This document shows positions 321-19,020 of a DNA stretch of 22,500 nt, piece by piece. The notes beneath the pieces were generated by a model. The model did not search any database and had not been told where the DNA came from. It was given only the letters and a program-made list of their open reading frames with translations. Source of the stretch: Chromera velia (Eukaryota > Sar > Chromeraceae). The stretch spans positions 677 through 23,176 of the forward strand of contig JAHBMJ010000281.1 in NCBI GenBank assembly GCA_018398765.1. Direction: 5' to 3'. A program made the position numbers and the translations under genes. How positions within the stretch are numbered: the first letter of the stretch is position 1; each line of letters starts with the position of its first letter.

Positions 321-3300
321 CTCTGATGCATTCTCCATCAGAATTCCGATACAGAATGTCACTATAGTCAAACTGCAAGGAGATAGGCAGGCAGGCAGGC
401 AGGAAAAAGTGTGCCGAAGGAAAGTGTGTGTATGTGCCATCTGTCTGTCTTTCTGGTAGTCTCTTGAAATGGCCTTCTCCCTTTCCTTCCTCGCTGCCGG
501 GCTTTCTGCTTCTACCCTTTGCCTGTACACTTTTTCTTTTCTTCTTCCTCTTTTCTGCATGGCTTCCTATTTTCCGTTGCTTCCTTCCTTCTCACCAGAC
601 CGAACCAAAAGGCAGCGTGCATTTATTTTCATACAGAATTCTTGTGATAACAATAAATGCATACATGTATAAAAATGTATGAAAATAAATGCGTGCTATT
701 TTCCGTTGCTTCCTTCCTTCTCACCAGACCGAACCAAAAGGAAGCGAAGGTTCCCTGTACATGTACACACACATTCGTGTATGTTGCAGAGAGGGAGCAA
801 GGGCGCATTAATCATCTTCGGCTGCATTCATTTCAAGAAGGGAGCCTCCCTCCTTCCCTCCTGCATGCCCCCGCCCCCCCACCTGATCCAGATGAACGGA
901 ATTCTTTTTCAGTATGAAAGTAAAATAAATCAAATAAATAAACAAAATAATTCTGTATGAAAATAAATACATACCCACGCACCCCCCCACCTGATCCAGA
1001 TGAACAGCAGGTGCGCGGGTCTCCAGTCATCACTCGGAAAGTAGTCGCCGTATCCGACTGTCGTCACAGTCACCTGCCAGCAAGGAAGAAAAGAAGGAGG
1101 TAAAGAGAGAGACAAGAAAGGTACCGGAGAGATACTAAGGAAATCAGAAAGAAGGAGGGGGCGACGAGGTCGGGAACGTGGAGGGGGGTAGAGACGATGA
1201 CATTGTAAAGTAAATGACGGGGGGGAATGAGAGAAGCATTAATTTCACTTCTGTGTGCATCCATCCATGTGTCGTCGTTCCTCCCCCTTTATCTTCATTT
1301 TCCATACAAGACATTTATCTAGGTGATTGATATGCGCCGAACTACTACTTCTCTTTTCGCATGACGGCTTTCTGTTCTTTCTGCACTGTCTGTCCACGTT
1401 CGGGGGGGGGTCCGCTCTTTCCTTCCACGAGAATGCGGAAGGAAGGAAGGAGAGACTCAAGGAAACAGATCCGAAGGGACAGTGCTGCTTCTGTTGTCTG
1501 TCTGTGTACAGGAACCTTCCTTCATTTTTTCCTTCTGTCAATCGATCAGAAAGCCATATCCTCCCCCCAACCCCCCCAAAACCCTTGGCCTCGGGACCAC
1601 TCTCTTGTCCCCGCTCGGGACGCAAACATGCTAACTGACGTCCTCCCTCCCTCTCTGTCTGTAATTCTTCTTCGCATCCAGTCAGTCACTCGCTCAGCAA
1701 CGAACTCTCTCCCCTCCTCCGCATCTCTCTCACTCACTCCATGCACCCTCCAAGTAAACCACTGACTGATTGACTGACCACAACAAAATAGGCCGATTCA
1801 ATCCAGTTCCAGTCTTGCGTAAAGCGAAAGAAAATGGCCCTGCACGCATGATTGATGAAGGAAGGGAGGAAGGAAGGATCGATTCGATCGTTTAATTTGT
1901 AGTTCGTTTGATCGGAGGGAGGACGCACACAGGAAGGAAAGAAGAGGAAGGGACGGGGCTGCAGCCATCAAAGACAGAAAGAAAGAGTTCTCGAGCTCGT
2001 GCGGGTCGAGAAGAAAGAAACACACGAAGACAATCCGCACAACCTCAAGGACACACCTACACCCACTAGCGTACCGGAGGGAGAGAAAAAGAGAAAGAGA
2101 GAGACAGAAAGAGAAAGAAAAAGAGAAAGAGAAAAAGAAAGAAAGAAAGAAAGAAAGAAAGAATGAAAGAAAGACACTTCTTTCCTCTCTTTCCTGACTG
2201 ATCGACTGACTGACTGACTGACCAGAGGGTCATGTGGCGCACAAAAATGGAGGCAGCCATTCATTTATTTTCACACAGAATTTCATACAGAATGCATGAA
2301 AATGAACGCATGCACTCACCAGAGGGTCATGTGGCCCACAAAAATGGAGGCAGCCAAGAGACGCCGTCGCATTTTTTGTTGGTGTGCCTGCAGGCAGAAC
2401 CATGCAGAAGGAAGAACTCCGGGAAAGAGGTTGACAGAGTGTGTGTTGCTCAAACTACGCAGTAGACAATTTCTTTAATTTTCCTTTTTGAAGGGTCGAA
2501 CTTTGGCATGATCATGTCCAATGAAAAGAAAAGACCGATCAGAAGAAGAAAGCGGGACCTCTCTGTCTCCTTTTTCGTTGCTTATCGAGGAGTCGCTCCC
2601 GTCTGAGAAGGAAGAAAGAGGAGAGGAACGAGCAGGCGGGGGGTGGTCAGGATAAAAAGGTGGCCCCCCGGCCACAGAGAATGATGGGAAGAAGCGCAGG
2701 CAGATTCGAGGCTGTCTCTCCGTCTCCCCGCCACCTTCTCAGATGCCCCTTTGTCGCCCTTCTCTTTCCTTCTTTCATTCCTTCCTCGGTTCCGGTATGT
2801 CTTCTCTGGTTATCAACAGAACAACAGCTTCACCATCCCTGATTGCCCAGGCGTCTCCACAGCAACCGAGGCACTGACCTCCAATTCGAGCCGGGACCCC
2901 AAATTATTTCGCCGAATTCCCAGAACTTCTGTCGACACGTACTGACCCATACCCTCAGCAATGCTCTCCCGAGGTAATCCCTCCTCCTGCACACACAAAA
3001 TTTTGCATACAGTCATACAGAATACATACATACAGATACACATTTATTGTGCATGCATTCAGCAATGCTCTCCCGAGGTAATCCCTCCTCCTGCGCACAA
3101 ATAAACAAACAAAACAAAGGGTAAGTGTCACAGAAAGAACATCAAAATACACACAGGCAGTGGGTACCTCCTCCCGCACATCGTAAGTGCACTCAAAAGG
3201 CGTCACCAGAATAGCAGCAGAGCACAAGCATTGAGAGCCTCCTCCCCCCTGTACACACCGACTAGACGGCCCATGGGGCCACAGGACGGGCCATTCATTT

Positions 3301-3831
3301 ATTTTCATACAGAGTTTTTTTTCATACAGAATTTCATATAGAAAGTATGAAAGTAAATGCATGCACGACTAGACGGTCCATGGGGCCACAGGACGGATCA
3401 AGCCTGACGCACACGCACACGCAAGCGTCATCCCGAAGCAGCTGTACGTGTATATGCAGTAGAGGAAGCAAACCGGACCAAACAGGATAAGAACTCAAGA
3501 AGAGAAGACTCCAGAGAGAGAAAAAAGAGTGCGGAGGGAGAAGGCTTCAGGGGAGGCAGGGATTTAGAGAAAGTGGTGAGAGATATGGGCGACAACGGCA
3601 GTATAAAGTGGAGCAAGCAAGCAGGTGAGAAGACATCAAGGAATACGATCAGACTGAAAGGTGCGCCCCCGTCTCCGAACTGATCCAATCTCAGTAGACC
3701 GGAAATTGTTTGCACCACGTGCTATGCGTTTTGCAAAAGCACGCTTGGTCACTGTGTTGGATCCAGACTCCCTTACTGACATGGTAGCGCCCAAGGAGAG
3801 CGGTGCTCTCACTCGTTCTCGGAGGGTCCAT
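321..3831 (-). CDS. Voltage-gated K+ channel, multi-exon, partial
   Basis: Probable K+ channel of the six-helix, CNG/HCN/KCNH-like type, acting in a membrane. The surest piece is the pore exon 1073-991, which reads TVGYGDYFPSDDW. An exon at 3248-3168 contains ILVTPFECTYD, resembling the VTPFE motif at the end of S1 in that family. An exon at 2387-2320 reads LLAASIFVGHMTLW, which I take as S5-like. A phase-consistent N-terminal model uses 3831-3777 (start, donor GTAAGG), microexon 3679-3655, 3403-3367, 3248-3168 and 2986-2879. Further candidates are 754-725 (follows the pore exon in phase) and 372-321. Exons between 2879 and 1073 (S2-S4) were not resolved, and the 3' end lies beyond the window. 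Five palindromic elements sit at its exon borders. The pore is family knowledge plus direct reading; subfamily, start and small exons are inference. Confidence 0.6.
568..746. repeat. Palindromic element with 50-bp flanking direct repeat
   Basis: Host copies 568-617 and 697-746 differ at one base. The 79-bp insert 618-696 has inverted ends: TGCATTTATTTTCATACAG on the left and the complement ATGAAAATAAATGC on the right. On the minus strand the repeat contains the donor TCTG|GTGAGAAG, placed at 725|724 in the exon-proximal copy. The second copy duplicates that donor inside the intron. Confidence 0.85.
874..1005. repeat. Palindromic element with 24-bp flanking direct repeat
   Basis: Host copies 874-897 and 982-1005 are identical. 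The insert 898-981 is AT-rich and degenerate, with AATTCTGTATGAAAATAAAT on its right arm and a decayed left arm. The repeat contains the 5' splice site of the K+ channel pore exon on the minus strand, so the donor occurs twice. Confidence 0.8.
991..1073 (-). CDS. K+ channel pore exon (selectivity filter)
   Basis: The exon is bounded by an acceptor (TTGCTGGCAG) and a donor (ATCAG|GTGGGG). It translates to VTVTTVGYGDYFPSDDW, then RPAHLLFIWI. TVGYGD is the K+ selectivity filter, and YFPSDD after it is typical of 6-TM channels. The exon is 83 nt, so it ends in phase 2, which fits the candidate next exon 754-725. Its donor lies inside a 24-bp direct repeat (982-1005) that is repeated at 874-897 beyond a palindromic element. 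Confidence 0.8.
1074..2319. other. Probable intron(s) of the K+ channel gene
   Basis: No exon could be supported here, although the missing S2-S4 or pore-helix coding sequence might lie in this stretch. It contains polypurine sequence, homopolymer G and C runs and a GAAA-type microsatellite near 2084-2171. Open frames across it are low-complexity and have no family signature. Confidence 0.4.
2084..2171. repeat. GAAA/GA polypurine microsatellite
   Basis: Runs of GAGA and GAAA on the plus strand, ending in perfect GAAA units near 2137-2162. It lies next to the palindromic element at 2221-2355. Confidence 0.9.
2221..2355. repeat. Palindromic element with 38-bp flanking direct repeat
   Basis: Host copies 2221-2258 and 2318-2355 differ at one base. 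The insert 2259-2317 contains TTCATTTATTTTCACACAG, a second TTTCATACAGAAT and the opposite arm ATGAAAATGAACGCATGC. On the minus strand the copy 2318-2355 ends exactly at the donor CTCTG|GTGAGT of the S5-like exon 2387-2320; the other copy carries CTCTG|GTCAGT. Confidence 0.85.
2955..3094. repeat. Decayed palindromic element with 36-bp flanking direct repeat
   Basis: Host copies 2955-2990 and 3059-3094 are identical. The insert 2991-3058 is degraded but keeps TCATACAGAATAC and a TGCATGCAT end. On the minus strand both copies carry the 3' splice site GCAG|GAGGAGGG, so the acceptor of the exon starting at 2986 occurs twice. Confidence 0.8.
3259..3396. repeat. Palindromic element with 31-bp flanking direct repeat
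   Basis: Host copies 3259-3289 and 3366-3396 differ at one base. The insert 3290-3365 reads TTCATTTATTTTCATACAG, a second TTTCATACAGAATTTC and the arm GTATGAAAGTAAATGCATGC. On the minus strand the repeat covers exon 3403-3367 and ends at its donor GTC|GTGCAT. Confidence 0.85.
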
Positions 3832-4652
3832 TGTCGGGGGGATCCTTTGGTTTGGCGTTAATTGTCTGTTTTTTGCTTGGCGAATTATACAGCAAGGCCG
3901 AGAAAGCCTGAGCACTTACAAACGAAAAGGACCGTATGAGCTGGCAGGGCTGCTGAGACTGTGCACCCAGCTGTAACGAGCTGACAAAAGGGAAACAAAT
4001 GAATGGGTGAGAGGGTTCGTTCCAATTGGAGCGTACGTTGGTTTAAGGAGAAAGTCTCAGAAGATCACGCGTGCACGGCTGAGAAAGATGCAAAGTGGTG
4101 ATTTGACAGCCCTGTCTGAGTGGCCTTATTAAGACAGTGTCTGCAAGAAGAGACAGGTTCACAGAAGCGGGCAGAAGGACGAACATAAAGCTGTGCACCT
4201 CGCACCGTCTGACATTAGTCTGCATGACACGTTCGTCAAGATACGCATCTTGCAGGCCAGGCATTGCCGTCTCCGGATAATGCGGCCGCGCGGCGCCGCG
4301 GCGCCGGCCCGGCGGCGGCGCGCATCAGCGTTCGCGGCGCCACGAACGGAGCAGCAGCAGCATGCAGCAACATGATCACCAGCTTTCATGCTGCATCATG
4401 CACCAGCACCGGGCCTGACACATTCTCACACGCACAGCTAGCTGCATGCCTGACAAACAGCCCGAAAACGTGCAGTGTAGGCAAAACAAAAGGACGAGAT
4501 CTTTTCAAAATTAAGCGGTTCCCGATTTAATTTTTCTTCCCTCACGTACGGCTCTGCGTTTCGATTCCTCTCAGAAAGAAAAACCAGCGAACCGTCTTTG
4601 ACAGAGTAAATTCAGACACGGCTCTGTCGACTCGTGGACGCACAAGTGCGAA
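3832..4652. promoter_or_regulatory. Divergent intergenic/promoter region with GC island
   Basis: This lies between the proposed start of the minus-strand K+ channel gene and the plus-strand GH54 gene, so it should hold both promoters. I see no exon. It carries a GC island at 4281-4323 made of GCGGCCGCG, GGCGCCGCGG and GGCGGCGGCG blocks. This is followed by a cluster of GCATG/CATGC motifs at about 4360-4450. A similar GC island occurs in the two other divergent gaps of this window. Confidence 0.45.
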
Positions 4653-6006
4653 ATGAAACTTTTCCATCTGTTTTTGAGTGTTTCTTCATTCCTGCCTTTG
4701 CTGCAAGGGCGCGGAGTGTTCACTTCGGCTGATTCCAAGTCAGAGACGGCGGAGACGGCACATGTCAATAAGAAGCCTCTCGAGGGTCCGTGCGACATTT
4801 ATGAGCGTGCCAAGACGCCCTGCGTGGCTGCGCACTCTCTGACTAGGGCCCTTTGACTTGGACCTATGAAGGGTCACTGTAACAGCTCCAGCGTGCGTCA
4901 GACAAGCAAACGATGGACGTTCGAGTGATGGCGGGAGGGGCCGGGATTGCAGATTCGGCGGTTGTCGACTCCTTTTGTCAGGACGCCTCGTGCATAGTGC
5001 TTCGGATCTACGACCAGTCCCCCTTCGGTAACCACCTGGACCTAGGGCCTCCGGGGGGGGCCGTGAAGACCCCGGACGAGGGGGTCAACGCCACAGCGAC
5101 ACGCGTACTGATCCAAAACCAGGCAACCGGGGAGACGCACCAAGTGTTTGGTGCAAAGTTCGAGGGGGGTATGGGGTACAGGAACGATAACACGAAAGGC
5201 GTGGCTGTGGATGATGAGCCTGAGTCTATCTACATGGTCGTTGCGGGTGGTCATTTCAACGACAAGTGTTGTTTTGACTATGGGAACGCAGAGACTTCAG
5301 ATCTCGACGAGGGGGAGGGAACGATGGAAGCGGTTTATTGGGGGTCTTGTAAGGGGTGGAGCAGGGGGAAGGGGAGCGGGCCGTGGGTAATGGCAGATCT
5401 GGAGAGTGGTCTGTGGGCGGGAGCACGGGAGGGGATAAATCCTCAGAATGTCCCCATTCGTTCTGATTTCGTGACTGCATTGTTGAAGGGGGATTCGAAC
5501 AGGTTCACTCTGAAGCACGCAGATGCGACGGGAGGCAAGAGTGGGAGTCCAGGCCTCATAGAAGAAGAGAACGGCAAGCTGCAGATGTTGTATGGTGGGA
5601 AGCGGCCTAACGAGAAGTATGAGGTGATGAGGAAGCAGGGTGCCAGTATTTTAGGCATCGGAGGGGACAACAGCAATTGGGCTGTTGGGACTTTTTTTGA
5701 GGGGGTGATCACGAAGGGTTATGCGTCCGACGACACGGACGCGCTCGTGCAGGAAAATATTCTGAATGCGGGGTACAGTCTGCTTCCTGCGGTAGAAGAG
5801 TCGCCTGCGTTTACTTTCATACAGAATTCTGCATGAAAGTAAACGAATTCTGTATGAAATTAATTTCATTAAAACGCGTGCAGGAAAATATTCTGAATGC
5901 AGGGTACAGTCTGCTTCCTGCGGGAGAAGTGTCACCAAGGCAGTCTCGAGCGAACAGCAGAGTGTTTGTTGTTGATGAGGAGGATGATCCCTTGAGGTTT
6001 GAGTGA
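4653..6006 (+). pseudogene. GH54 alpha-L-arabinofuranosidase, disrupted
   Basis: GH54 enzymes release L-arabinofuranose from plant or algal polysaccharides. The ATG at 4653 opens a signal peptide (MKLFHLFLSVSSFLPLLQG). Then come GPCDIYERAKTPCVAAHS, DQSPFGNHLD, CCFDYGNAET and GIGGDNSN, all family signatures. The nucleophile Glu (in TMEAVYWG, codon 5327-5329), the acid/base Asp (in GGDNSN, codon 5666-5668) and the vicinal Cys pair (5267-5272) are kept. The frame breaks at 4854-4856: HSLTRAL runs into TGA, one base short. A second lesion, TAA at 4880-4882, replaces an expected Tyr. Downstream the frame is open from 4913. Residue spacing across the break matches the family, so a hidden intron is unlikely. 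A palindromic element at the 3' end puts a stop at 5836; without it the frame runs to 6006. No CBM42 domain follows. Recent decay or an assembly error are both possible. Confidence 0.85.
5746..5935. repeat. Palindromic element with ~59-bp direct repeat, inside GH54 coding sequence
   Basis: Host copies are 5746-5804 and 5877-5935, with a handful of differences near their right end. The insert 5805-5876 holds a near-perfect palindrome (TTTACTTTCATACAGAATTC then TGCATGAAAGTAAA), followed by a second GAATTCTGTATGAAAT arm. In the unspliced reading the element adds FTFIQNSA and a stop. Two splice choices keep the frame into the second copy: 5747-5883 removed, or 5792-5883 removed. Confidence 0.85.
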
Positions 6007-6309
6007 CACCAGATCATAGGTCGACCATACGCTGTGCGTGGGGAGTGCATGTTGCAGTGTCCTGCCTTCCGCTGCCGTCCGGCCATCGTCCGGCCCTTCT
6101 CGCACGCGCGCCGTCTTTGCTTCGATCGCCCGCTACCGCGTTCTGTCTGTCCGGCGCTGTCTGGCCCCAGTGTCTGCGCTCGTGCAGGGACCGGTCAGAT
6201 TGAATCTGCCCTGCGCCGTCTCGCTGAGACCGTTCCGTTCTTTCGGTCGTAAGTCTGTCCTTTCTCGAGGAAAAGCATTGTTAGTAGAAGTGCATGTTCC
6301 GAGAGTCAC
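6007..6309. other. 3' flank of the GH54 gene
   Basis: GC-rich, pyrimidine-biased sequence. Open frames exist on the plus strand but match no family I recognise and look like chance. It ends abruptly at an AT-rich block. Confidence 0.4.
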
Positions 6310-6990
6310 CTAGAGAGTCACGAGTCAAACTCTGAATTCTCTTGACTCTATATGAACGATAATGAACGACAAAAGATCTTCTATAGTATATCCTATCTTT
6401 TACTGACTGAGATTTTCTAGGAGATTTTTATATTCAATTTCCTGATATTAGATTTGTTATTATTCAATTCAATTTCTTATTCGAAATTTATTTCGAAATT
6501 CTAAATCGAATATAGGAGTTCCATATAATCCCACGACTTTTCAGTAGATTTTGTTTAAATTTGAGTCGATTTTTATTATTTATATAATAGTCTACGAAAG
6601 AGAACTTGAACATACTTGAAACTTTATTTCACTTTAAAACTTTACATATCATGTATATCTAGAGTAGAGTTGTTGAATACCGCCCACCGGTTACAACCGG
6701 TTGTTTTTGATCCCCCAAATAACATCCAATAACGGTATTCGATACACCGGAACTATAGGGTATTGTGTCATAATTTGAATAATGTCATACTATGATTTCA
6801 GCTAGTGTACTATTCAGTATTTAAACTTACCGTTTTAAGTATGTTTAAGCAACTATGCGTCTATCTATGTATAAAAATTAAAATATGCAATGATTCGTAT
6901 AAAACTAGGTATAAAAAGATTTTCAAGAACTTGATAGCGGTATGTGGTGACCACTATAGCTGAGCAATGCTTTTCTGATCGAGAGAGTGT
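6310..6990. other. AT-rich block between convergent genes
   Basis: The composition changes sharply to AT-rich, with no microsatellites and no long open frame. It lies between the 3' ends of the plus-strand GH54 gene and the minus-strand gene ending at 7353. It contains an inverted pair ACCGGTTACAACCGGTT at 6686-6702. I see no transposase, terminal repeat or gene. Confidence 0.6.
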
Positions 6991-7352
6991 TAGCGCTTAG
7001 TGTGTGCGTGGACGAGTGACTGGATGAGTAAGAGAGTAAGTGGGTGGGCGACTGAAACCATCACCGTTCTGGACGGCATTGGTCGCGTGGTCGGCAATCA
7101 AGTCGAGAAACAAACTGAATGCATGCACGACTGTACAAGCACATCGATGTGTCTTTCTCAGACCGTCGCGCAAGTACAACATATGAGTTCAATGTTTGCC
7201 TGGCCCATGCACCGTTTATTCCGACACTCACATGCAGTTCCTGACATGCAATTCGATCTGTGTGCCCGACAAAAGCTTCGCCTCGATCATTGCTATTTCA
7301 TGTTTTCTTTCTGTACTAGCTCGAGCTGCCACCATGCAACTGGGTCGATCAG
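6991..7352. other. 3' flank of the minus-strand gene at 7353-8491
   Basis: Ordinary-composition sequence between the AT-rich block and a stop codon at 7355-7353 on the minus strand. It probably includes that gene's 3' UTR. No supported feature is seen. Confidence 0.4.
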
Positions 7353-8491
7353 CTAGTCTTGAAGGATAACGAAGTACGAGGCTGCCGCCCCACAACAGCC
7401 AGAGATAACGATGCCAACTCCGAAGTTATTGTTGTCGCATTCTGGTGACTCGTTGAAGGTGAACTTTGCTTGCAGTAGCCCGTCTGTCTCCTTTCCCTTT
7501 CCTTTCGTTTGGTCTGACTCGGGTTCTCCTGGCAGGGGCGAGACGACAAAGGTGCTGTTGACAGGGACAATCGGTGGAGCCTCGTTGATCTGGAAGAGAC
7601 TGTCTCCGATTGACTCTTCTCCCAGACACACGACTGTGGCCGCCACCGCGTCCGGACTGAAAACAATGCATGCATTTATTTTCATACATTTATCTATTTA
7701 AGAATTCTGTATGAAAATAAATGCAGACACACGACTGTGGCCGTCACCGCGTCCGGACTGAAAGCAGAGAGACACAAAGAGAAGCAGGCAGGCAGACGGA
7801 AAGACAGACAGACTATATGGTCTCAGACAGACAGACAGACAGACAGACAGACGGACAGACAAACAGATAGACAGACACATAGACAGACAGGCAAGGGGAC
7901 ATATAAAGGCAGGCAAACGGACAAAGAAAACAGACTGACAAAGTAAGCGTTGGGGTTTTGGACAGCTGTCTGCCTACCTGCCCGCCTGCCTGCCTGACTG
8001 GATTCATACATATTTATTTATTTTCATTTAGTGAAAATAAATGCATGCACCTGCCTGGCTGACTGACTCTTTACACCCCGAGAGGACAAAAGTGCTCTCG
8101 GTGACCCCGACAATGCCGAACGTCACGCTGCCCTCCACCAGTGTGCCCTCCGTCCCCACCAGCCACGCTGCCAACGCCGTGTCTCCCAGAATTTCATCTG
8201 CAAATGACTCCAGAGACGCCGAGAAGTTTCCATTTTTGCTGGGGGGCAGCTTCTCCGTCTGTCGCACAATGGAAGGTTGGGGTGTGGAAAATTCCACCAC
8301 CATTTCGCTGTCTTGAACGTCCGGCACCAGGAATGCACCTTTAAACTTGTGTCCGCATGAAGAGACGGAGTGGAAGGCCGTGAGCACGTTGTTGCCCTTC
8401 TCTGGGTCGAAAAGGTTCCCTACCCAAGTGAGGCGGTCCAGGGTGATCGAGCAGTTCTCGGTAAAGCACTTCTTCCCCTTCTGGCCTTTCT
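7353..8491 (-). CDS. Unrecognised protein, two 3' exons (5' end not found)
   Basis: Two exons agree in phase. Exon 8491-8077 has the acceptor GACTGCGTGCAG and the donor TCGGG|GTGTAAAG; it encodes about 138 residues beginning KGQKGKKCFTENCSITLDR. Exon 7656-7353 has the acceptor TTGTTTTCAG; it encodes PDAVAATVVCLGEESIGDS and so on to a TAG at 7355-7353. A loose internal repeat is visible: an (L/I)GD(T/S) motif followed about 20 residues later by a (G/N)S(V)TF motif occurs in both exons, suggesting repeated beta modules. The last about 20 residues before the end (FGVGIVISGCCGAAASYFV) are hydrophobic and could be a membrane segment. The first exon was not found. I do not recognise the family. The intron holds a CAGA microsatellite, one clear palindromic element and one weak one. 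Confidence 0.65.
7623..7763. repeat. Palindromic element with 40-bp flanking direct repeat
   Basis: Host copies 7623-7662 and 7724-7763 differ at one base. The insert 7663-7723 contains ATGCATGCATTTATTTTCAT and the opposite arm GAATTCTGTATGAAAATAAA. On the minus strand both copies contain the acceptor TTTCAG|TCCGGACG, so the 3' splice site of the terminal exon at 7656 is present twice, once 101 bases upstream in the intron. Confidence 0.9.
7790..7910. repeat. CAGA microsatellite
   Basis: Imperfect then perfect CAGA units, with interruptions such as ATAGACAGACACATAG. It lies in the intron of the minus-strand gene at 7353-8491. Confidence 0.9.
7985..8066. repeat. Weak palindromic element copy
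   Basis: The insert reads TTTATTTATTTTCATTTAG, then TGAAAATAAATGCATGCA. It is flanked by a short, imperfect CCTGCCTG-CTGACTG repeat. It resembles the family but has lost the CATACAGAATTC core and has a poorly defined duplication. It lies about 10 bases inside the intron from the donor of exon 8491-8077. Confidence 0.5.
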
Positions 8492-8960
8492 CTGCACGCA
8501 GTCAGAAACAATGCGACGCAGAGAGCAGATTGAAGCAGTCTCAATGCACCGCTGTGAAGCGACAAAACCGTATTGCCTATTTCTGCCCAGAGTTCTCCTG
8601 AGAACATACAGTTCGGAATGGGAGACGTCAAAGGACTTCCCCGACGCTTTAAGAGGAGACTGCGTGTGAGTGAGAGAGACAGAGGAGAAAAAAGAGAAGA
8701 AAGAAAAAGAAACCTTCTCAGGCAGGAGTTACCATCCTGGCCGCTCTCTCTCTGTGTTGCTGTACTCAACTGTTTCCATGGGTGTGTGCGTGTGTTGTTG
8801 AATGCATGGCTGTGCGCACGCGTGTGTGCGGTTGGCGGTGCATCTGGTTTTTTGGTGAGACCATACATGTACAAGAGCATGGACATATGTGTGTGAACAC
8901 AATTTTGGATAGAAGACGCGGCCCATCAGCACGTCTTCTGAGAGTAGATTTATTGCGCAT
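8492..8960. other. Gap between two minus-strand genes
   Basis: This probably holds the promoter and missing 5' exon(s) of the gene at 7353-8491. On the minus strand there are donor-like sites (GATG|GTAACT near 8731, AACT|GTATGT near 8607) and possible short ATG-led exons. None joins in phase to the exon at 8491 without a stop, so I do not call one. Confidence 0.35.
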
Positions 8961-9449
8961 CTAGAGGAAAGAACCGAATTTGCTCATGAATTCCGTTAAT
9001 TCTCTGAAGCATTTCAGCAGAACCAAGGTGTCACTTCTGGCATGTTCGTGAGTGTCTGCTGCTGACTCCCGAGACGATTGACTGACCTTCGTGCGAACCC
9101 AATTGACAAATATATACGCACATACGTGTATGGTGACCCCTCCCTTTCCCTCTTTTCTGACCGACTAACCTCCGAAGAGGCCCGAGTCGAGGCCGTTGAA
9201 GCCATCCAGGTTAAGCTTGGAGGCCCCAAGGTCGAGGTCAAACTTCTCTGAGAGGCTGCCGAGGTCTCCAAACTTTTTCACAGAGTCCTGAATACATGCA
9301 TGCATGCAGTTAGAAGATTTGAAGTGAAGCACGCAAGCCGGGAAGGAAAACAGTGAGTTCATAATGTTATGTTCTATAAAATGCGGACAAAAGCTCACCA
9401 CAGCGCCCTGAGCTCCAGCAAAAACCAGAGCAACAGTAGCGAGCTTCAT
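8961..9449 (-). CDS. Small secreted protein, 88 residues, three exons
   Basis: Exon 1 (9449-9399) encodes a short signal peptide, MKLATVALVFAGAQGAV, with the donor GTG|GTGAGC. Exon 2 (9287-9170) has the acceptor GTATTCAG and the donor GGAG|GTTAGT. It encodes an acidic, Gly/Leu/Asp-rich stretch, for example FDLDLGASKLNLDGFNGLDS. Exon 3 (9058-8961) has the acceptor GTCAGCAG; it encodes DTHEHARSDTLVLLKCFREL, then TEFMSKFGSFL, and a TAG at 8963-8961. The total is 267 nt and all phases agree. The mature protein would have one Cys and an amphipathic C-terminal helix. I do not recognise a family. Export is inferred from the N-terminus; an effector, matrix or cell-surface role cannot be told apart. 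Exon 3 is the least certain part. Confidence 0.65.
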
Positions 9450-10139: not shown

Positions 10140-11001
10140 ATGAAAAAAGTGGTTGTGGCTTCCAAGAGAGGCCTCAAGGGAGGTTCTCTGTCTGCAGCTA
10201 GCCAGGAAGCCCTGGGCGTCGGGAGAGACGCCGTGGTGCTGGACGTCACCAGTAGGGGCAAGGAAGAGATGAGAGTGTTCTCTCCCTTCACCCAAAACGG
10301 AGATCATCTCTTCACTGTGCCTTTTCTCCCTTCCTCTGTCCCCAAAGAAAGGAGAGAGAGCAGGACTGTGGAAGGCATCTGGCAGGGACTGAAGATCTTC
10401 CAAAAGTGCGCAGAGGGGGCAGAGCTGACGGACGGAAAGTACGGAGTCGACTTCGGGAAGTTTAAAGCCGCGAATAAAAACCTGAAAAGGACCACCAGGA
10501 CACTCGGGGGCGTCAGAGGACACTATGGAGGTACGTTGATCGCCCTAGCTGGAATTTCTATGCATTCCTCTTTTCTTTGCGCGGATTGGTTTGTTCAGTG
10601 CTTGAAGTACAGGGGGACTCATCTGCCGTTGTATTTATTAACACATCTGCCGTTGTATTTTTTAACACATCTGCCGTTGTATTTATTAACACATCTGCCG
10701 TTGTATTTATTAACACATCTGCCGTTGTATTTATTAACACATCTGTCGTTGTGTTTATTAACACATCTGTCGTTGTATTTATTAACACATCTGTCGTTGT
10801 GTTTATTAACACAAGCTTTCCTATTGTTTCAAAAGGAGCGAAGAGAGGTAGATCGGGAGATGGATTTCCACGGACCCTGAGGGCGTACAGGCGAAGGTTC
10901 TACCCGTCTACGTCTCTGTGCCTCTGTGAACAAAGGAACCAATTAAGAGAGCACGTCTCTCTCTCAAAATGTGTGTGCTCTCTCAATCTAATATATGCAT
11001 G

Positions 11002-11064
<63 letters not shown>

Positions 11065-11646
11065 TGTGCCTCTGTGTGTGTGCCTCTGTGTGTCTGTGTC
11101 CCTCTGTGTGTGTGTGCGCGCAAGCGCGTAGCTGCGGGCCTCTGTTTGTACGTCCGTGCTTTTTTGGAACCAGAACACGCACACTGTTTGTTTCATCCTT
11201 GTTCGTCTGCAGGTCCGGGTGTCTTTCTGAGCATTCAGGAAGCCCGCAAGAAGATCTACCTGAGTGCATACAAACAACAGCTTCAACTTCCCCCAGTCGC
11301 CCGGCAGGTGGAGTCGCTGCGTGCCGTTGCCAGAGAGAAGGATTTGGTTTTTTTGGATTTCGACACGAACGACGATCTGAATAAAGATAAACCCCTGTCC
11401 CACGCGCAGTGTTTGCGGTCCTTTGTGCTGCACGGAGACTTTCGGGAGATCAAGGGGTCCCCTGAGGCACGAGGGGAAACCCGGACAACAGGACAGGCAG
11501 AGGGGGTAAAAGAGGCATTGCAATGCTCTTCGTCTGCCTCCTCGAGCTCTTCTCAGAATCCGAGCTCGAAGAAGAAAAGGCAGTCAGATGCAGCTGTAGA
11601 AGGGACAGAAGACGTTTCGCCTCTCTCCAAGAAGAAGAAGACTTAG
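10140..11646 (+). CDS. DUF6939-like conserved protein, two exons, basic tail
   Basis: Exon 1 (10140-10530) starts MKKVVVASKRG and ends at the donor GGAG|GTACGT. Exon 2 (11213-11646) follows the acceptor TTCGTCTGCAG and ends at a TAG. Phases agree and the product is 274 residues. Landmarks are DVTSRGKEEMRVFSPF, VEGIWQGLKIF, LKRTTRTLGGVRGHY, ARKKIYLSAYK, LVFLDFDTNDD and PLSHAQCLRSFV. They match, from memory, an uncharacterised family mostly known from bacteria (I believe DUF6939; the number should be checked). The function is unknown. The last about 55 residues are serine-rich then lysine-rich (SSKKKRQSD, SPLSKKKKT), unlike the bacterial proteins as I recall them, and could be a nuclear localisation signal. 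The 682-nt intron holds a 24-bp minisatellite and CT/GT tracts. Transfer from bacteria followed by intron and tail gain is inference. Confidence 0.85.
10621..10812. repeat. 24-bp minisatellite, 8 exact-length units
   Basis: Eight units of 24 bp (ATCTGCCGTTGTATTTATTA plus ACAC) start at 10621 and every 24 bases after. Units 1-5 carry GCCG and units 6-8 carry GTCG; a few units also vary at one other base. It lies in the intron of the gene at 10140-11646. Because 24 is a multiple of three and the unit has no stop in the exon 1 frame, exon 1 reads openly through it to 10880. Confidence 0.95.
10996..11122. repeat. CT then GT microsatellite
   Basis: A long CT run (to about 11046) passes into GT-rich sequence. 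It lies in the same intron, 90-215 bases before the acceptor of exon 2, so it may act as an extended pyrimidine tract. Confidence 0.9.
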
Positions 11647-12894
11647 ACTGATCAAGGGGAAGAAGACTTGAGTTCATATGACCACTCTCAACGCCTGGGT
11701 CCACGTTCGAGCTGGCGTTCGAGGTGGTTTGGAGGAAGACCTGCTTCTTTTTTTGTTAAAAGACTGTTGTTTGAGTGGTGCACAAGTGTTGTTCATGTGT
11801 TATTCATGTGTTGCGTAAGCGTTGTTCATTAAATCGTTGTTAAGTGTTGTTGAGCTTCAAAAAGTACCAAAAAAAAAAAGAAGAAAACAAATCTGCTTGA
11901 ATCGTTTATTTTATATCTGGGGGGAACTTTTGAAGACTTTTAAAAAACATGTGGAGATAGGTAGAGCGAATGATCAAAGGTGTTTCGTCACTTGTGATTA
12001 AAATATATTTAATTATCCCATGAAGTGATTGAATGTGATTGAATAAACTGAATAATTAGCCAAAGTCCGATTCTTACTAGTCTTTAATACCTTTGGTCAT
12101 TCTGATGGTGCGTGGTTTTTTTTTTACGTTATAAAAACAAATGTTTTGGGAGTAGCCTAGAGGCTTGTGCACATCCAGTGCACTGCATGCATGGCCCAGC
12201 CCATGCAGCCCGGGCCAGCCATGCATGCGCCGGTGCGGCCCCCCCCTTAATTAATTTAGGAATATATTCCTGAATATATTCCTGATTATATTACTTTTGA
12301 AGTGAGTAACTAGTGAATAAATATATTCCGTGATTAAACACCTTTGCGAATGATGCCGAATGTCGACTTTAGTGTCGACTTAATTGTTTAAGTATATAGC
12401 TCTTTCGCGTTCTCATGAAAATTGTGCAACCTATGTTAATTTAGGTCAGCCTATGTATAGGAATCTATACTGTTTAATTTAAGTTTAAACTAGAGTGTGA
12501 ATTTATTTGAATTGTGAACTAGATTTTGAAGTCCTTACATGCAGAGTGGACCACGGAAAAACGTACAACATCATTCTCATCGCAGATATATGATCGAGTC
12601 GGTTTAACTCGGTTAGAGTCCATTAGACTAGAAATATTTAACTATTTTAATGATCATTACCTGATCATATTTCCTAATCAAAAAAGTAATTCCCCTTATA
12701 TTTCCTAGCCAAAATAGTAATTGCATGTTTTTTAGTAGTTTTTATACGCAACTTTTCTGTTAGAGTGGTGTTCTATCAATGTCAGGCATTGTTAGAGGCA
12801 TTGTCAGCATGTCAATTCCGAGTCCCGAGTCTTCTTATAGTCTTCTCCCAAAGGTTTGGCTCACTGCCCGGAAAAACAAAAGGACCCCATGCAA
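11647..12894. other. Convergent intergenic region with AT-rich block
   Basis: The 3' flanks of the genes at 10140-11646 and 12895-19020 face each other here. From about 11880 to 12760 the sequence is AT-rich, has no microsatellites and no convincing gene. A GC-rich patch with three GCATGC motifs interrupts it at about 12175-12246. An A-run at 11869-11878 may be near a poly(A) site. A 60-codon plus-strand frame at 12526-12708 has no recognisable features and I do not call it. Confidence 0.6.
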
Positions 12895-14931
12895 TTAAGA
12901 TGCAAAGGAAAGATGACCAAGGTAGGCCCCACTGCCCCCTAGGTCGTCGTCCCCGATTTTCTTCAGAAATCGCAACGCCGCGCCGTTCCTCTCCCCACTG
13001 GAGCCGTCCAGAGGAAACTCGATCTCCATCTCCCGACCACTGTCACGAGACCGCAGCTGCATGCAGAGACAAATGGAATTGAATAAGGAAAAAGTGAATC
13101 GCGCGCACACGCGCGCATGTGTGTGTGTGTGTGTGTGCGTTCGCGTGTCTGTGTCTATGTCTTAGTGCGCATTTCTGTGTGAACATCCGTACTCGCCATT
13201 TCTGTGTGAGGCCCAAGTTGAAACTCCACTCACACTCCAAGAAAGAGGGAAGGAAAAGACCCTAAAAGAAAGAAAATCAACTGGGTGAGTGAGTGAGTGG
13301 GTGAGTGAGAAAGAAAAAAGCAAGCCGGCGAAGTAGATAGATAGATGCATGGGAGATCCACAAATGCAAAAAGCAGAAAGAAAAAAAGAAAGCAAGCAAG
13401 CAAGAAAGAAAGAAAGAATGAAAGAAAGAAAGAATGAATGAATGAAAGAAAGAAAGAAGGTTCCTGCATGTGCTGCCCTCCCTCCCGATGAACCCACCCC
13501 TGCCAGTTTTGCCTTCCCTCCCCCCAGCCCTCCTCCTTTCCCTTCCAACTTCTTCTCCTTGTCCTTCTCTGTCACCGCCACGCGAAGAGACTCTCCAGCA
13601 GCGAGGGCAACCAGACGTTTGTCGAATCCAAACAGGTTACCGATGTGCCGGAAGACTGACCTGAAGACATGCAGGGTGCATTTATTTTGAAAATTCTGTA
13701 TGAAAATAAACGAATCCAAACAGGTTACCGATGTGCCGGAAGACAGACCTGAAGACATGCAGCATGCATTTATTTTGAAAATTCTGTATGAAAATAAACG
13801 AATCCAAACAGGTTACCGATGTGCCGGAAGACAGACCTGATCGAAGACATGACGACGACAAAAAACGCGGAAACGGGATTGAAGCAAAAGCAACAAAAAA
13901 AAAAGGAAGAGAGGGAAAAAGAAAGAAAAGAGAGCGGGTGTTGGAAAACAAACTTGAAAATGAGGCAAAAAAACATGGAACAGAGGACGCCAGAAGTAAA
14001 AGCAGGGGAGAAGAAGAGACAGAGGGGTGGTGAAACCAAAAGAATAGAAACACGACGACGAACGAAAGGCATCAAGGCGGTTAGGAAAAGAGACTGACAA
14101 ACAAACAGAAAGAGGAAAGAATGGAAGAAAACAAAGTGATTAAGCCAGAAAGGAAAGGAAAGCAGGGACGGAGGGAGAGAGGGAGGAGGAAAGGAATGAC
14201 GCCAAGAAGAGAGAGAGACCGAAACAGAAATCCAGAGAGAAATTCCAGACAGACCATGCCTCTATCGCCCCTTTCTTCTTCCCCCCTCCCCCCCCTGCCG
14301 TTTCGTCTTCCTTCCCGTCTCCTCCTGCTGAGAGGACAAGAAAGGGATCCAACCGGATCTGCAGAAGACCCTCATAGGAGGGAGACTGGAACCACCAGGA
14401 CTCCTGGGGGACACTCAGAGTCACCATCTTCTGCACTGCATCCACATATCCATCCATGCGACCAGTCGTCTGGCCATTGGTCATCTTGAGCACAGACGAG
14501 ATTGATCCATAAATGTTGGTATCCATCCATCCATCCATACAGCCATACAGCCACTCATCCATGAATTGATCTCTGTGTGTCTGATTCATTCGAACCGCCT
14601 TGGAGACGGCAAAAAACATTTTCAAAGGAACATCCGAATACAAGAAGCACCAACGCGAAGTATTTGATAAGCCAGTTGGATGACTGCTCTCTAAAAGCAA
14701 GAAAAACCTGTTCTTTTGTTCTTTTGCACCCCCTCCAGGCAATACTCAAAAACGAACAAAAAAAGAGATACAGAAGGAATAGACGGAAGGAAAGAACAAA
14801 AGAAAGAAAGAAAGAAAGAAAGAAAGAAGAAAGAAAGAAAGAAAGAAAGAAAGAACGAAAGAGAGAACGAAAGAAAGAACGAAAGAAAGAACGAAAGAAA
14901 GAAAGAAAGAAAGAAAGGAATGAAGGAAAAA

Positions 14932-14975
<44 letters not shown>

Positions 14976-16041
14976 AGAAAAAGGAAGAAAAAAAAAAAGA
15001 AAGAAAGAAAGAAAGAAAGAAAGGCAAAGAGAAAACAACGAAAGAGAGAAAGCAAAGAAAGCGATAGAGGAAGAAAGGAAGCAAGGAACAAAGAAAGATG
15101 GGATTACACACAGGAAGCGCTGCATGATAATGAAGCTGGTCCAAAACGGCATCAGAGTGGGAGGTGACAAGAGGAGATGGGCACGCAGAGATAGAAAGAG
15201 AGAGTGAGACTCCCCTTATGTCTTGATGTTTGTTCCTTCTTAACTTACCTTCACACACAAACTGATTGGCCTTCCCTCCCCCCAGCTGTCTTCTTTTTTT
15301 CTTTCCGCTGTCGACAGGAGACACTGCCGCCGTGAAAACCTCCCCCCATTCCTTTGCCTCCAGCTTGCTCCATTTGATGTCTGCCAAAGACGTCTGACGC
15401 TGTGCTGGTCGAGAAGCTGAAGACGCATCAGAACTGGTTGGGGACACCGCCACGACGATATCCAATGGCTTCAAAGGAGCCGGGAGGGAGGCACAGGGAG
15501 GCATGCGCCTCTCCAGACACAGACGGATGTGCTGTGCCACATACTCAGGTAGAGACTTATCGAAATACTTGTCGGTGGAGAAGAGAGAGTCCCGAACTTC
15601 TTTCCTTTTCTTTTGCTGCTCCCGACTCTGACTTTCCTTCTCTTTCTCGTCCTTCTCCTTTCCTGCTTTGTCTTCTACCGACTGCTGCAGCGGATCTGTG
15701 CTGGAGGGTCGTTTCACTGCAGACGGCTTTGGGGGGTATGCCGGCGTTCTGTCTCCGTCTCCTCCGTCCCTGTCGTCCTCTTTCGCCTTCTCGTCCATTT
15801 CCTCAAAGAGAGAGGAAACGACGCCGAGGCCGCCTGTGATACTGCCAGCTGAGGGCGGGGCATCTGAGGCACTCACCTTTCCTCTCGTCTCTCTGTCTCC
15901 CTCAGGAGGCTGAAGAGAAATGGAGGTCTCTCTCTCTGTCGTCGTGTGGGTGTTGGACACAGCGAGGAAGCGCCCTTTCCTGCATGCATGGAGCGGGGGA
16001 GCGGAGGGGGGGAACACACACACGTCAATATGTACACGGCA

Positions 16042-16078
<37 letters not shown>

Positions 16079-18174
16079 AGAGAAAGAGAGAGAGAGAGAG
16101 AGAGTCTCTGTATCACGGCATGATCATGCAGAAGCAAGAAGCAAGAAATGCAACCAAACAGTGGGACGGGGACAAGCAAGCAAGAAGAAAGGCAAGAAAG
16201 AGAGCAAGGGACAGGAGGAAAATTGCAGGATGTCATGGCGAGTCACAAGGCAAAGTGATAAAACAAAACAGCCTTCTTTCTTGACTTGAAGAACTCTTTG
16301 CCCTTTGAGAAAGAACAGACAGGAACTTTCTTTACTTGAAGAACTCTTTGCCCTTTGAGAAAGAACAGACAGGAACCACAGCCGAACGAAATCCTCGCAG
16401 GGAGAGAGAGCAACAGGCCTCCCTCCACGCACTGGGGGGGGCAAAAAGGAAAACAGAAGCACGACGACACGAAGAGAGAGAGCAGACAGAAAGAAGAGAA
16501 GGAACAAGCGAATAAAAGAAAGCAGAAAGCATGGACGAGCGAAGGAGGGAAAGAAAAAGAAGAAGAAGAAGAAGAAGAAGAAAAGAAAAGACAGAGAAAG
16601 AAAGAAAGAGGTCCATGCACCCCCCAAACGACACCCGACGGAAAGACAAACGAACTAACCGCATCAGTCCCACGAGCGTTGGCTGTTCCCTCAGTAGCTG
16701 TTTCATGTTCTTTGGGTCCATCTCGAGCACCAGCAGGAGAACCACCTCTGTCAGGGAAGAGAAGAGAGAAGAAACGGGCAGGAAGAGAGACAAACAAATG
16801 AAAGCCCATGCATGCAGTCAGTCGGACAACGCGATGATGCGTTATGCTGTCAGAGCGAAACTAGGAAGGAATTGGGGGCCTTCAGAGAGTTGCAATTAAT
16901 TGCTTTGAAATTCTTCTTCTTCTGCCTGCCTGCATGTCTCTCTGTTTGGCGGTCTCTCTTTCTGCCCGCTGTTCGACTTTCTGCCGCTCCGTCTTCCTGT
17001 CACAGTGTCCAGCTCAGTGACCGACCGTTTGAGCGAATGACCTTCTGTCTGTCTGTCCGTATGCCCCGCTTCCTCTCTCTTTCTCGCATTCCTTTTCATA
17101 CAGAATTCTTTTTATGTATGTAGGTATGGGTGTATGTATGTATGTACATTTTTATGTATGCCGACCTTCTGTCTGTCCATATGCCCTCCTCTCTCTCTCT
17201 CTCTCTCTCTCTCCCTCTGTCTGTGTGTGTGTGTGTGTGGGAGTCCGTCTTCGTTTGTCTTTTTTCTTCTTCTCAGTCTGACTCTGTCTGTGCGGGTATG
17301 AGAACATCCATGCGTCCATTTGAGGGAGCTCTCTCCTTCTCTCTGACACTGTCTGTGCGGGTGTGAGAACATCCATGCGTCCATTTGAGGGAGCCCTCCC
17401 CTTCTCTCTGACAAGCAGCAGCGTGGATGCTTTGAGTATGCACTGACTGACAGACCAGCGGCGGTGTGGATGCTTTGTATGTATGTATGTATGTAAATAA
17501 ATGTCTGCAAAGACAGACCAGCGGCGGTGTGGATGTTGTTCTGAAGGGCCCTGTGGTACCCCATTCCATTTCTTTACATACAGAATTCTTTTTATGTATG
17601 TCTGTATGTATGTATGTATGTGTGTCTGTAAATAAATGTCTGCAAAGACAGACCAGCGGCGGTGTGGATGTTGTTCTGCAGGGCCCTGTGGTACCCCATT
17701 CCATTTCTTTACATACAGAATTCTTTTTATGTATGTCTGTATGTATGTATGTATGTATGTGTGTCTGTAAATAAATGTCTGCAAAGACAGACCAGCGGCG
17801 GTGTGGATGTTGTTCTGCAGGGCCCTGTGGTACCCCATTCCTCGGCCCTTCTCGTCAGTGAGCGGAATGCGCGCATCCCCGCACTTGTGCACAACGATCA
17901 GCAGGTCCGGTTTCTGCAATCAATCAATCGAGAGACCCACCGAGGCATCTTTTCTTTTCACGTGACAGTGCATATTCGTTGCACTCGATTCGTTGGTCAC
18001 GCATGCAGCTCGATCGCTTCCCTGTGGGACGGGACGGAGAGATTTGTATTGCGGTCTGTCTTCATCATTTCGGGAAAGCACCGGTGAGCTTCGTTCGGGG
18101 AAGGGGAACATGCAGGTAAAGTAGAGGGAATTATTGTACGTTTCCGATTGTGCGTCTTTTGTTTGTCCGATGGT

Positions 18175-18210
<36 letters not shown>

Positions 18211-19020
18211 CAGCACAGACCTCCCTCTAGCGACCGACCGGGTCATCGTCATCAATTTACCCATTGACTGCCAGCCTGCCTTAATTCCTTCCTTCCTTGC
18301 TGACCTTCCTGACAGGGACGTCCCTGAATGCGTTGGAGATGACGTCTCTCTCGAGGGTTCCGAAGTCGACGTGGGCCTGTATTCATTTATTCATTGATTT
18401 GTTGATTTTCATGAAAATAGAATTCTGTATGAAAATAAATGAAGTGACGTCTCGCTCGAGGGTTCCGAAGTCGACGTGGGTAGAATGAATGAAGCCATCG
18501 GTTGGTTGGTTGGTTGATTGGTTGGTTTGTAGGTTTGGTTGTTTGGTTGGTAGATTGATAGCGTGAGTGGGAGGGAACACGGGATGGGACGGGAAAATCG
18601 CTCTGAAGAGCTCTTCGTTCTCCATGAAGTCATCCATCCATCCATCCGTCCGTCCATCCATCCATCCATCCGTCCGTCCATCCATCCGTCCATAAATTCA
18701 ATCATGAGAAAGGGAATCCACACAAAGAGAAGCGAACAGAGCGGAAAGAAAGGAAACCGAGGGAAAGCCAGTGAGAGGGTCGCGTATGGGTTGCTCCACC
18801 TGAACAGAGAGGGAGACGGATACGCTGCCTATAGGAAGTAACGATCATGAACATGTCGAGAGGAGTCATCTTGAAGACAGACAGACGGACGGACATTCAA
18901 TCCCGCCAGCGGTCCGCCTTCCAGAAAGAGCCTCGCCACTCTGGTTGCACTGGAGAAGTGAAAGGACCGGATCACCACGGAGGGTTGATCTGTTGTCAGG
19001 GAGCTACACTGGGTTCCCAT
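12895..19020 (-). CDS. Unrecognised 555-residue protein, ten exons, N-myristoylation signal
   Basis: Exons: 19020-18891, 18828-18800, 18376-18305, 17913-17793, 16747-16660, 15979-15249, 14690-14596, 14430-14354, 13660-13498 and 13056-12895. All junctions are GT-AG, all phases match, and the total is 1668 nt ending in TAA, which strongly supports the model. The start MGTQCSS fits an N-myristoylation signal (Gly2, Ser6) with a nearby Cys for palmitoylation, so membrane attachment is likely. Recognisable stretches are [20 protein letters not shown] (exon 3), [20 protein letters not shown] (exon 4) and [18 protein letters not shown] (exon 5). Exon 6 (about residues 147-390) is charged and low-complexity, then [20 protein letters not shown]. 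Exons 7-10 give [52 protein letters not shown] and [15 protein letters not shown] recognise no family and assign no function. Three splice borders are duplicated by palindromic elements. Confidence 0.75.
13057..13497 (-). other. Intron 9 of the 555-residue protein gene
   Basis: Donor GCAGGG|GTGGGT, acceptor CTCTGCATGCAG. It holds an alternating GT/GC tract near 13100-13160, GAGT repeats near 13285-13310 and a GAAA microsatellite at about 13375-13462. Confidence 0.6.
13375..13462. repeat. GAAA microsatellite
   Basis: GAAA and GAAT tetranucleotide units with GCAA interruptions, within intron 9 of the minus-strand gene. Confidence 0.9.
13623..13840. repeat. Two palindromic elements in a tandem 88-bp array at the exon 9 acceptor
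   Basis: Host copies start at 13623, 13711 and 13799, exactly 88 bp apart. The two inserts are nearly identical: ATGCATTTATTTTGAAAATT then CTGTATGAAAATAAA. They are internally shortened forms of the palindrome. On the minus strand every host copy contains the 3' splice site CAG|GTC(T/A)GTCTTCC of exon 9. Only the 13623 copy continues into the rest of exon 9. Confidence 0.9.
13841..14353 (-). other. Intron 8 (remaining part) of the 555-residue protein gene
   Basis: Purine-rich, AAAG/GAGG-type low-complexity sequence with a C-rich patch near 14280-14300. No gene is supported. The donor is ATCCG|GTTGGA at 14354|14353. Confidence 0.5.
14691..15248 (-). other. Intron 6 of the 555-residue protein gene, with large GAAA array
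   Basis: The donor GAAG|GTAAGT is a near-perfect match to the consensus; the acceptor is TTGCTTTTAG. The intron is dominated by a GAAA microsatellite at about 14795-15033. Long Lys/Glu or Phe/Leu/Ser frames here are artefacts of the repeat. Confidence 0.7.
14795..15033. repeat. GAAA microsatellite, about 240 bp
   Basis: Mostly perfect GAAA units with GAAC, GAAG and poly(A) interruptions. It is the longest simple repeat in the window and lies in intron 6 of the minus-strand gene. Confidence 0.95.
16043..16107. repeat. CA then GA microsatellite
   Basis: A CA run at about 16043-16074 followed by GA units to about 16107, within intron 5. On the minus strand it reads CT then GT. Confidence 0.9.
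16284..16376. repeat. Tandem duplication, 43-bp copies 50 bp apart
   Basis: Copies 16284-16326 and 16334-16376 are identical (ACTTGAAGAACTCTTTGCCC to GACAGGAAC). There is no palindromic element between them, unlike the other duplications in this window. It lies within intron 5, away from any predicted splice site. Confidence 0.9.
17039..17198. repeat. Degenerate palindromic element, imperfect flanking repeat
   Basis: TTTTCATACAGAATTC lies at about 17094-17109 next to ATGT repeats. The flanks GACCTTCTGTCTGTC (about 17039 and 17163) followed by a similar TATGCCC tract look like an imperfect duplication. It is inside intron 4 and does not touch a predicted splice site. Confidence 0.45.
17284..17412. 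repeat. 64-bp tandem duplication
   Basis: Copies 17284-17347 and 17349-17412 are near-identical, with a few substitutions. Each carries CATCCATGCGTCCATTTGAG. There is no palindromic insert between them. It lies in intron 4 of the minus-strand gene. Confidence 0.85.
17449..17841. repeat. Array of exon 4 ends separated by palindromic elements
   Basis: A 56-bp host segment occurs at 17786-17841 (contiguous with exon 4), 17647-17702 and 17512-17567. A 24-bp part recurs at 17449-17472. The 79- and 83-bp inserts contain TTACATACAGAATTC, ATGT repeats and AAATAAATGTCTGC. The inserts differ by one ATGT unit. On the minus strand each host copy ends with the donor GCCGCTG|GTCTGTC, so the 5' splice site of exon 4 appears four times in a row. 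Confidence 0.9.
17914..18304 (-). other. Intron 3 of the 555-residue protein gene
   Basis: Donor AGGAAG|GTCAGC, acceptor TTGATTGCAG. It contains an AG run at 18180-18205. No exon is supported inside it. Confidence 0.6.
18338..18480. repeat. Palindromic element with 36-bp direct repeat at the exon 3 acceptor
   Basis: Host copies 18340-18375 and 18445-18480 differ at one base. The insert 18376-18444 holds AGAATTCTGTATGAAAATAA and a degraded second arm (ATTCATTTATTCATTGATTT). On the minus strand the insert's end reads AATACAG|G immediately before the host repeat, so the AG of the exon 3 acceptor comes from the element. The upstream copy is preceded by TTCTAC and has no AG there. Confidence 0.85.
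18622..18692. repeat. CATC/CGTC microsatellite
   Basis: CATC units with interspersed CGTC pairs, within intron 2 of the minus-strand gene. A TTGG-rich tract at about 18500-18550 lies in the same intron. Confidence 0.9.

Follow-up and report, generated by a model that had tools for sequence, protein, structure and literature searches.

Miniature inverted-repeat transposable elements (MITEs) and foldback elements have ends that are fixed and duplicate only about 2-11 bp of the target, and target-primed reverse transcription of long interspersed nuclear elements (LINEs) or Penelope-like elements gives rise to target duplications that are variable and sometimes long. Among systems that act at introns, previously characterised introner families carry duplications of 3-9 bp in the available text of PMC9860276, and eight-nucleotide repeats are given for one recent case of nonconventional euglenid introns in that of PMC4770533. 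Here we describe a family of short palindromic inserts in Chromera velia, noticed in a stretch of 22,500 nucleotides (the window; contig C280, positions 677-23176), in which inserts lie between two long direct copies of host sequence and these copies are enriched for predicted splice sites.

The initial annotation of the window had described such inserts between repeats of 24-59 bp, placed nine of them at splice borders, and offered two origins: an introner-like transposon, or a repair process that copies a border and leaves a palindrome. Our search of the assembly (177.8 Mb in 4,040 contigs) upholds the inserts and their long repeats as real and genome-wide. The second of the two origins fits the ragged, microhomology-joined ends that we find.

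A palindromic insert family between long direct repeats

The half-palindrome TTTATTTTCATACAGAATTC has 185 exact matches in the genome and 1,691 at up to two mismatches; the same sequence reversed, taken as a control, has no exact match and one at up to two mismatches across the whole genome. A second main form, TTTACTTTC..., has 352 exact matches. The filler between the repeats is not heterogeneous, being one family in these two main forms, a short palindromic (hairpin) insert with the consensus TGCA-TTTA(T/C)TTTCATACAGAATTC...GAATTCTGTATGAAA(A/G)TAAA-TGCA. The window itself holds 15 half-palindrome matches at up to three mismatches, with none in 100 shuffles. Two samples were drawn: the first holds 100 of the 185 exact TTTATTTTCATACAGAATTC sites, namely the window and regions L009-L086 (20 of 10 kb and 58 of 0.8-2.3 kb), and the second 20 regions holding the TTTACTTTC form with 21 exact half-sites. 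Nine further clusters were found in about 182 kb (twenty 10-kb loci), from which we estimate several thousand genomic copies by extrapolation. Similar inserts occur across many genes. Terminal inverted repeats are visible in the printed inserts, some loci having one clear arm only, and the centre of the palindrome varies widely among loci.

With simple repeats masked, a direct repeat scoring at least 16 flanks 90 of 102 insert clusters and 54 of 600 random positions (Fisher 3e-61); unmasked, the contrast is smaller (50/60 clusters versus 66/300 random positions at a score of at least 20). Across the 71 loci with a single unit the repeat measures 16-102 bp (median 37, mean identity 96%), being no longer than 63 bp in 68 of them and within the annotated range in 56, and the insert measures 17-120 bp. 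Some of the very short inserts and long repeats in these ranges, L072 and L093 among them, are artefacts that arise when arrays or the insert itself are aligned. The mean period of repeat plus insert is 101 bp. Tandem arrays of about two to five units each account for 19 of the 102 clusters. The repeat-insert-repeat architecture recurs in 18 of 20 loci of the second sample and in all four loci of a check on long inverted pairs. Assembly artefact, raised by the initial annotation as something that would undo the finding, is unlikely because the copies diverge by about 4% and the units of arrays differ among themselves.

Other tandem duplications are not rare in this genome, given that 25 of the 600 random positions score at least 40 despite masking. 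An unbiased scan of 220 kb gave 54 further direct-repeat units outside known clusters, many of them simple or lacking a palindrome; in the same scan, L012:7065, L024:7372 and L026:5803 show the repeat-insert-repeat pattern with inserts that are not clearly palindromic. The window carries 50- and 65-bp tandem duplications without any palindrome at 16276-16375 and 17277-17406, which suggests that tandem duplication is common in this DNA in general. Regions L038 and L077 are two contigs with one locus, 99.2% identical over 610 bases, one of which ends inside an array; they are either haplotypes or an assembly duplication.

The ends of the inserts are ragged. The conserved core starts 0-26 nt from the repeat in the 113 arms that have it (21 arms do not), and fixed transposon ends were rejected, there being no aligned terminus and a variable core offset. 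At the junction, the insert's own prefix TGCATGC(A/G) continues into the target for a mean of 1.51 nt (49 arms), whereas random ends give 0.35 and permuted ends 0.70; none of 5000 permutations reaches 1.51. Overlaps of insert ends with the target are often 1-4 bases of TGCA, CA or CG, and no other strong target consensus was found at the insertion sites. Viral contigs held no match to the family pattern, and a viral or prokaryotic source was rejected, with three stretches in two bacterial metagenome-assembled genomes against about one expected by our own estimate (257 Gb).

Predicted splice borders and coding sequence at the repeats

The association of repeats with splice borders extends beyond the window. 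Scored on the joined empty site, 39 of 80 loci have a splice-site score of at least 7 in the repeat, against 25.3% of 1,267 shifted windows from the same loci (P=1e-5), and donors alone do so in 16 of 80 against 7.7%, both locus counts being back-calculated from fractions. The share with a splice site is 49% at offset 0 and 44% at +20, and 18-22% at -140 to -60 and +40 to +60. Loci of the first sample, before the second was added, stood at 34/64 against 489 of 2,000 random segments. Furthermore, of 33 predicted splice sites with a score of 8 or more, 20 are no further than 10 nt from the intron-side end of the repeat, where 9.3 would be expected under uniformity (some loci give two sites). Counts of CAG and ACC at the repeat ends give a mild signal only.

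A codon model was trained on this genome's own sequence and applied to 89 loci and 1,500 random sites. At threshold 8 it classed exactly one side as coding in 32 loci and 278 random sites (P=2e-4), and both sides in no locus and 61 random sites (P=0.046). Thus, the readable copies sit at the edge of an existing intron and do not constitute a whole new one. By eye, the non-coding side of many loci shows pre-existing polypyrimidine tracts or simple-repeat introns. Hand reading of 45 coding-flanked loci put a predicted border inside the repeat in 28 (for L019, on the strand that the model did not choose); the intron part of those 28 repeats is 3-25 bases long (median 8) and the remainder exonic, by a reading that is possibly biased. 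The shortness of the intron part, taken with the crowding of high-scoring sites at the intron-side end, indicates that border-bearing duplications consist mainly of exon.

Protein homology supports the association in individual genes: across eight genes identified by homology, nine predicted exon borders fall within repeats, and for three of these borders the exons on both sides are matched. For the dynein gene of L028, AAA_9 is matched at 68-176 in the exon before the intron and at 179-222 in the exon after it, with the acceptor in the repeat; different inserts have duplicated this acceptor on two occasions, each time breaking the exon at one and the same point, nine bases from its edge. A 61-bp repeat in L023 spans the acceptor before the FBPase_C exon, with FBPase preceding (unbiased repeat scan and homology), and MTHFR_C is matched on both sides of the L025 locus (76-186 and 204-248). 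One actin exon (L083) has a repeat-insert unit at each edge; it aligns over 48 residues to a solved actin, and its Pfam score of 25.1 is just under the cut-off of 27. A conserved leucine of this exon is CTG in the exon-proximal copy and GTG in the other, which is what one would expect were the former the functional copy. The adjoining exon was also identified for CobN/Mg-chelatase (L029:581), a K+ channel (window 874), ankyrin (L032) and Ost-alpha (L045); splice sites in these four genes and at both actin edges were placed by eye. Paralogues gave no empty site: self-matches aside, only distant ones were found, a single one for the actin exon (53% over 32 residues) and six for the dynein exon (27-37%). 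A WD40 match at L018:5156 (THOC3-like, E=1.4e-4, far under the Pfam cut-off) starts before the acceptor and was therefore not counted as a supported border.

Within the window (Table 1), the nine annotated borders fare unevenly. The border at 874 is backed by homology, the adjoining exon matching Ion_trans_2 (PF07885, E=2.7e-6) and the donor CAG/GTGGGG in the repeat scoring 8.4, and the 13623 array is coding on one side with a score of 13.4. Those at 568 and 7623 have splice-site scores in their favour; the frame adjoining 7623 was picked by the coding model (3.9), yet it was not classed as coding on that strand in the flank test. The borders annotated at 2221, 2955, 3259, 17449 and 18338 were read by eye, and at the last of these (18340 in the table) no convincing acceptor was found. 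The repeat at 2217 becomes 2224-2259 once simple repeats are masked, and the 2955 locus falls outside the 102 clusters because its motif is too diverged for the 4-mismatch scan. Of the two loci annotated away from borders, the one placed deep in an intron at 17039 does have an insert, between repeats that are weak. The one at 5746 is indeed inside coding sequence, ArabFuran-catal (PF09206) being matched at E=8.6e-93 on the joined frame from which the insert and one repeat copy are omitted.

Table 1. Repeat-insert units of the window, with one double insertion from L028; a slash within a motif marks the predicted splice border
Feature	Repeat copies	Insert	Repeat length, identity	Border or context
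Single unit	567-617, 696-746	618-695	51 bp, 98%	Donor-like CTG/GTGAGA on - strand inside repeat, score 8.7
Single unit	874-897, 982-1005	898-981	24 bp, 100%	Border of K+ channel exon, - strand
Single unit	2217-2259, 2314-2356	2260-2313	43 bp, 95%	Donor-like CTG/GTGAGT on - strand, by eye
Single unit, diverged insert	2955-2995, 3059-3099	2996-3058	41 bp	
Single unit	3259-3289, 3366-3396	3290-3365	31 bp, 97%	Candidate border
Single unit	5746-5802, 5877-5933	5803-5876	57 bp, 95%	Interior of exon, coding sequence of GH54-type arabinofuranosidase
Single unit	7623-7662, 7724-7763	7663-7723	40 bp, 97%	Acceptor TTTCAG/TCC on - strand in repeat, score 10.0
Tandem array	13623-13664, 13711-13752, 13799-13840	13665-13710, 13753-13798		88-bp unit x 2.5
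Weak candidate (annotated at 17039)	within 17048..17205	17086-17167	84%	Partly low complexity, masked score 12
Tandem array	within 17449..17841			135-bp unit x 2.7, repeat core GACAGACCAGCGGCGGTGTGGATG
Single unit	18340-18375, 18445-18480	18376-18444	36 bp, 97%	
Double insertion (L028)	within about 4890-5140 of reverse complement			Dynein acceptor, minus strand

The host of the 5746 insert, at 4914-6003, is apparently a single-exon gene for a GH54-type alpha-L-arabinofuranosidase, in which the insert brings a stop just past the catalytic domain, unless this stop is spliced out as part of a new intron. Elsewhere in the window, 21160-21572 is an array of 74-78-bp units in which a CCTCCGTCC-type segment alternates with TTTATTTATTTTC-rich stretches, suggestive of a repeat-insert array from a different, diverged family. 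A short degenerate palindromic stretch between imperfect CTGCCTG/CTGACTG repeats lies just inside an intron at 7980-8060 and is possibly an older family member. Intergenic GC-rich blocks in TGCATG-rich surroundings were seen by eye at 4270-4330, 12170-12245 and 19440-19500.

Origin of the inserts

Our preferred explanation, to which we give a probability of roughly 55%, is that DNA breaks with a long stagger, within or next to exons, take up a hairpin template, and that insertions provided with a spare splice site survive. Hairpin inserts would enter the DNA at long, variable staggered breaks, paired nicks presumably leaving 3' overhangs. The overhang ends would anneal by microhomology to a hairpin template of RNA or DNA, both the template and the enzyme being putative; the template would be copied or joined, and fill-in would then duplicate the target. 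Insertion would prefer exon or exon-edge DNA. Copies are proposed to survive if the duplication has a splice site, because the intron would then take in the insert together with the superfluous exon edge and both would be spliced out, and repeat-plus-insert units may later grow into tandem arrays. Direct target repeats and microhomology are found together at these loci, as in the repair of staggered breaks. Additionally, both arms of a locus have the same base at the T/C position in 44 of 51 loci (P=6e-6, in samples chosen by one exact arm), a covariation that has suggested fold-back copying of one arm from the other.

Several observations weigh against this explanation. The second sample alone has no significant excess of splice sites (6/17 versus 38/156, P=0.38). 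The shortage of loci with coding sequence on both sides is only marginal, and at threshold 4 the difference is not significant (7/89 versus 188/1,500, P=0.24). The remaining 17 of the 45 hand-read loci comprise L029:278, window 5746, the ambiguous L017, two possible edge donors and 12 unclear cases. Two of these are counter-cases: at L029:278, the other edge of the L029 exon, the repeat begins about 6 nt inside the intron, and at 5746 the insert is interior to the exon of the GH54 gene. One of the 22 sources of the random-end control for microhomology was a bacterial record (L107). In the first sample alone, arm distance is no smaller within than between loci, and fold-back copying is not backed there. 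Finally, with only 4-9 intron bases duplicated, the downstream acceptor is without a pyrimidine tract of its own, and the model is silent on why it should be chosen over the upstream copy.

Retroposition overlaps with staggered-break capture, and the odds of the two are not exclusive. A hairpin RNA would be copied in by LINE- or Penelope-like target-primed reverse transcription, making the insert a tiny relative in kind of short interspersed nuclear elements (SINEs). SINE-like features are duplications that vary in length, ragged ends and joins with microhomology; the arms covary as in an RNA stem, and three inserts are predicted to form RNA hairpins of -20.3 to -28.5 kcal/mol. Against this, no polarity or tail was noticed by eye, although the microhomology is pooled over both ends, and Rfam gave no match within the window; we regard retroposition as a serious contender, though an unlikely one.

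Random insertion across the genome, with border-spanning copies merely the tolerated ones, appeals to a survivorship filter that is plausible and is itself part of our preferred explanation. Deep-intron copies would then probably dominate, but predicted splice sites peak at the repeat itself, and strong ones crowd at its intron-side end. We consider a purely random choice of target rather improbable.

A MITE moved by a terminal-inverted-repeat transposase that cuts with a very long, variable stagger would account for the terminal inverted repeats, the subfamilies and the high copy number; MITEs and foldback elements are likewise short, AT-rich, palindromic and abundant. The ends of the present inserts are not fixed, however, microhomology is used at them, and the duplication length is inconstant. 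A long parent element was looked for in three inverted pairs, one on C1831 (1.3 kb apart) and one each on C665 and C462 (about 4-5 kb; to 4.8 kb), and rejected, since every pair consisted of individual short hairpins, each flanked by a repeat of its own; no long element was found among these three pairs, and no search by transposase family was made. Such a MITE is improbable.

Still more doubtful are introners that create whole new introns in exons. The exon-interior insert at 5746 and the ambiguous L017:4821 would suit them, and published introners may draw both splice sites from the insertion site, according to the available text of PMC9860276. Both flanks are coding in 0/89 loci at threshold 8 and 7/89 at threshold 4, with 5746 a possible exception, and many loci have the pre-existing tracts and simple-repeat introns described above. 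The initial suggestion of an introner-like transposon in the usual sense is therefore not borne out; neither a standard MITE nor a standard introner fits. Very improbable, too, is assembly error or minisatellite growth, in which exon edges beside palindromes already present would undergo ordinary tandem duplication: the other direct-repeat units of the unbiased scan speak for this reading, but inserts of one family are found in unrelated genes, with repeats that are unrelated from locus to locus, as repeat-insert-repeat, and the copies of the repeat differ.

If hairpin capture at staggered breaks is correct, these inserts may represent a new kind of splice-border-duplicating element, with exon-edge duplications mostly of 16-63 bp, TGCA-primed on a hairpin template, mobile or repair-borne, and silent in genes; we put this forward tentatively, the odds leaning against it. 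Such an element could colonise genes without breaking them, by duplicating enough target to supply a spare splice site. It would tie together staggered-break repair, introners and intron growth, offer many natural experiments on how the spliceosome chooses between two near-identical splice sites, and explain one way in which the genome's long, repeat-filled introns may have arisen.

Relation to described introners and intron-border repeats

A literature search of titles and abstract openings returned no description of this insert family, and 'Chromera' and 'introner' occurred together only in PMC7789003; the main text of PMC9860276 does not contain 'Chromera'. The introners of PMC9860276, as far as its available text goes, are alike in being many similar short genic elements, with terminal inverted repeats in some families and splice sites drawn from the duplicated target. 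They differ in that the element itself makes the intron, with 3-9 bp duplicated, whereas here the edge of an existing intron is duplicated, mostly over 16-63 bp.

The Amoebophrya introners share with our inserts an alveolate host, inverted and direct repeats over exon-intron borders, and hairpin RNAs; in the available portion of PMC7789003, however, their direct repeats are 3-5 nt and their inverted repeats 8-20 nt, the introns are mostly non-canonical, and there is no family-specific inverted-repeat motif. Direct repeats at intron borders are also the subject of PMC11782384, where, in the part available, they are 4-30 bp long (mean 11.4 bp), lie at or near both intron borders and are given without mention of a palindromic insert. 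The Daphnia neointrons attributed to staggered double-strand breaks (PMC4202315) likewise combine an insertion with a direct repeat of the exon end, and show repeated break and repair at one site. In the available text of that study the intron/exon repeats measure 4-12 bp, and there is no mention of a shared palindromic insert, whereas in C. velia one palindromic family recurs genome-wide.

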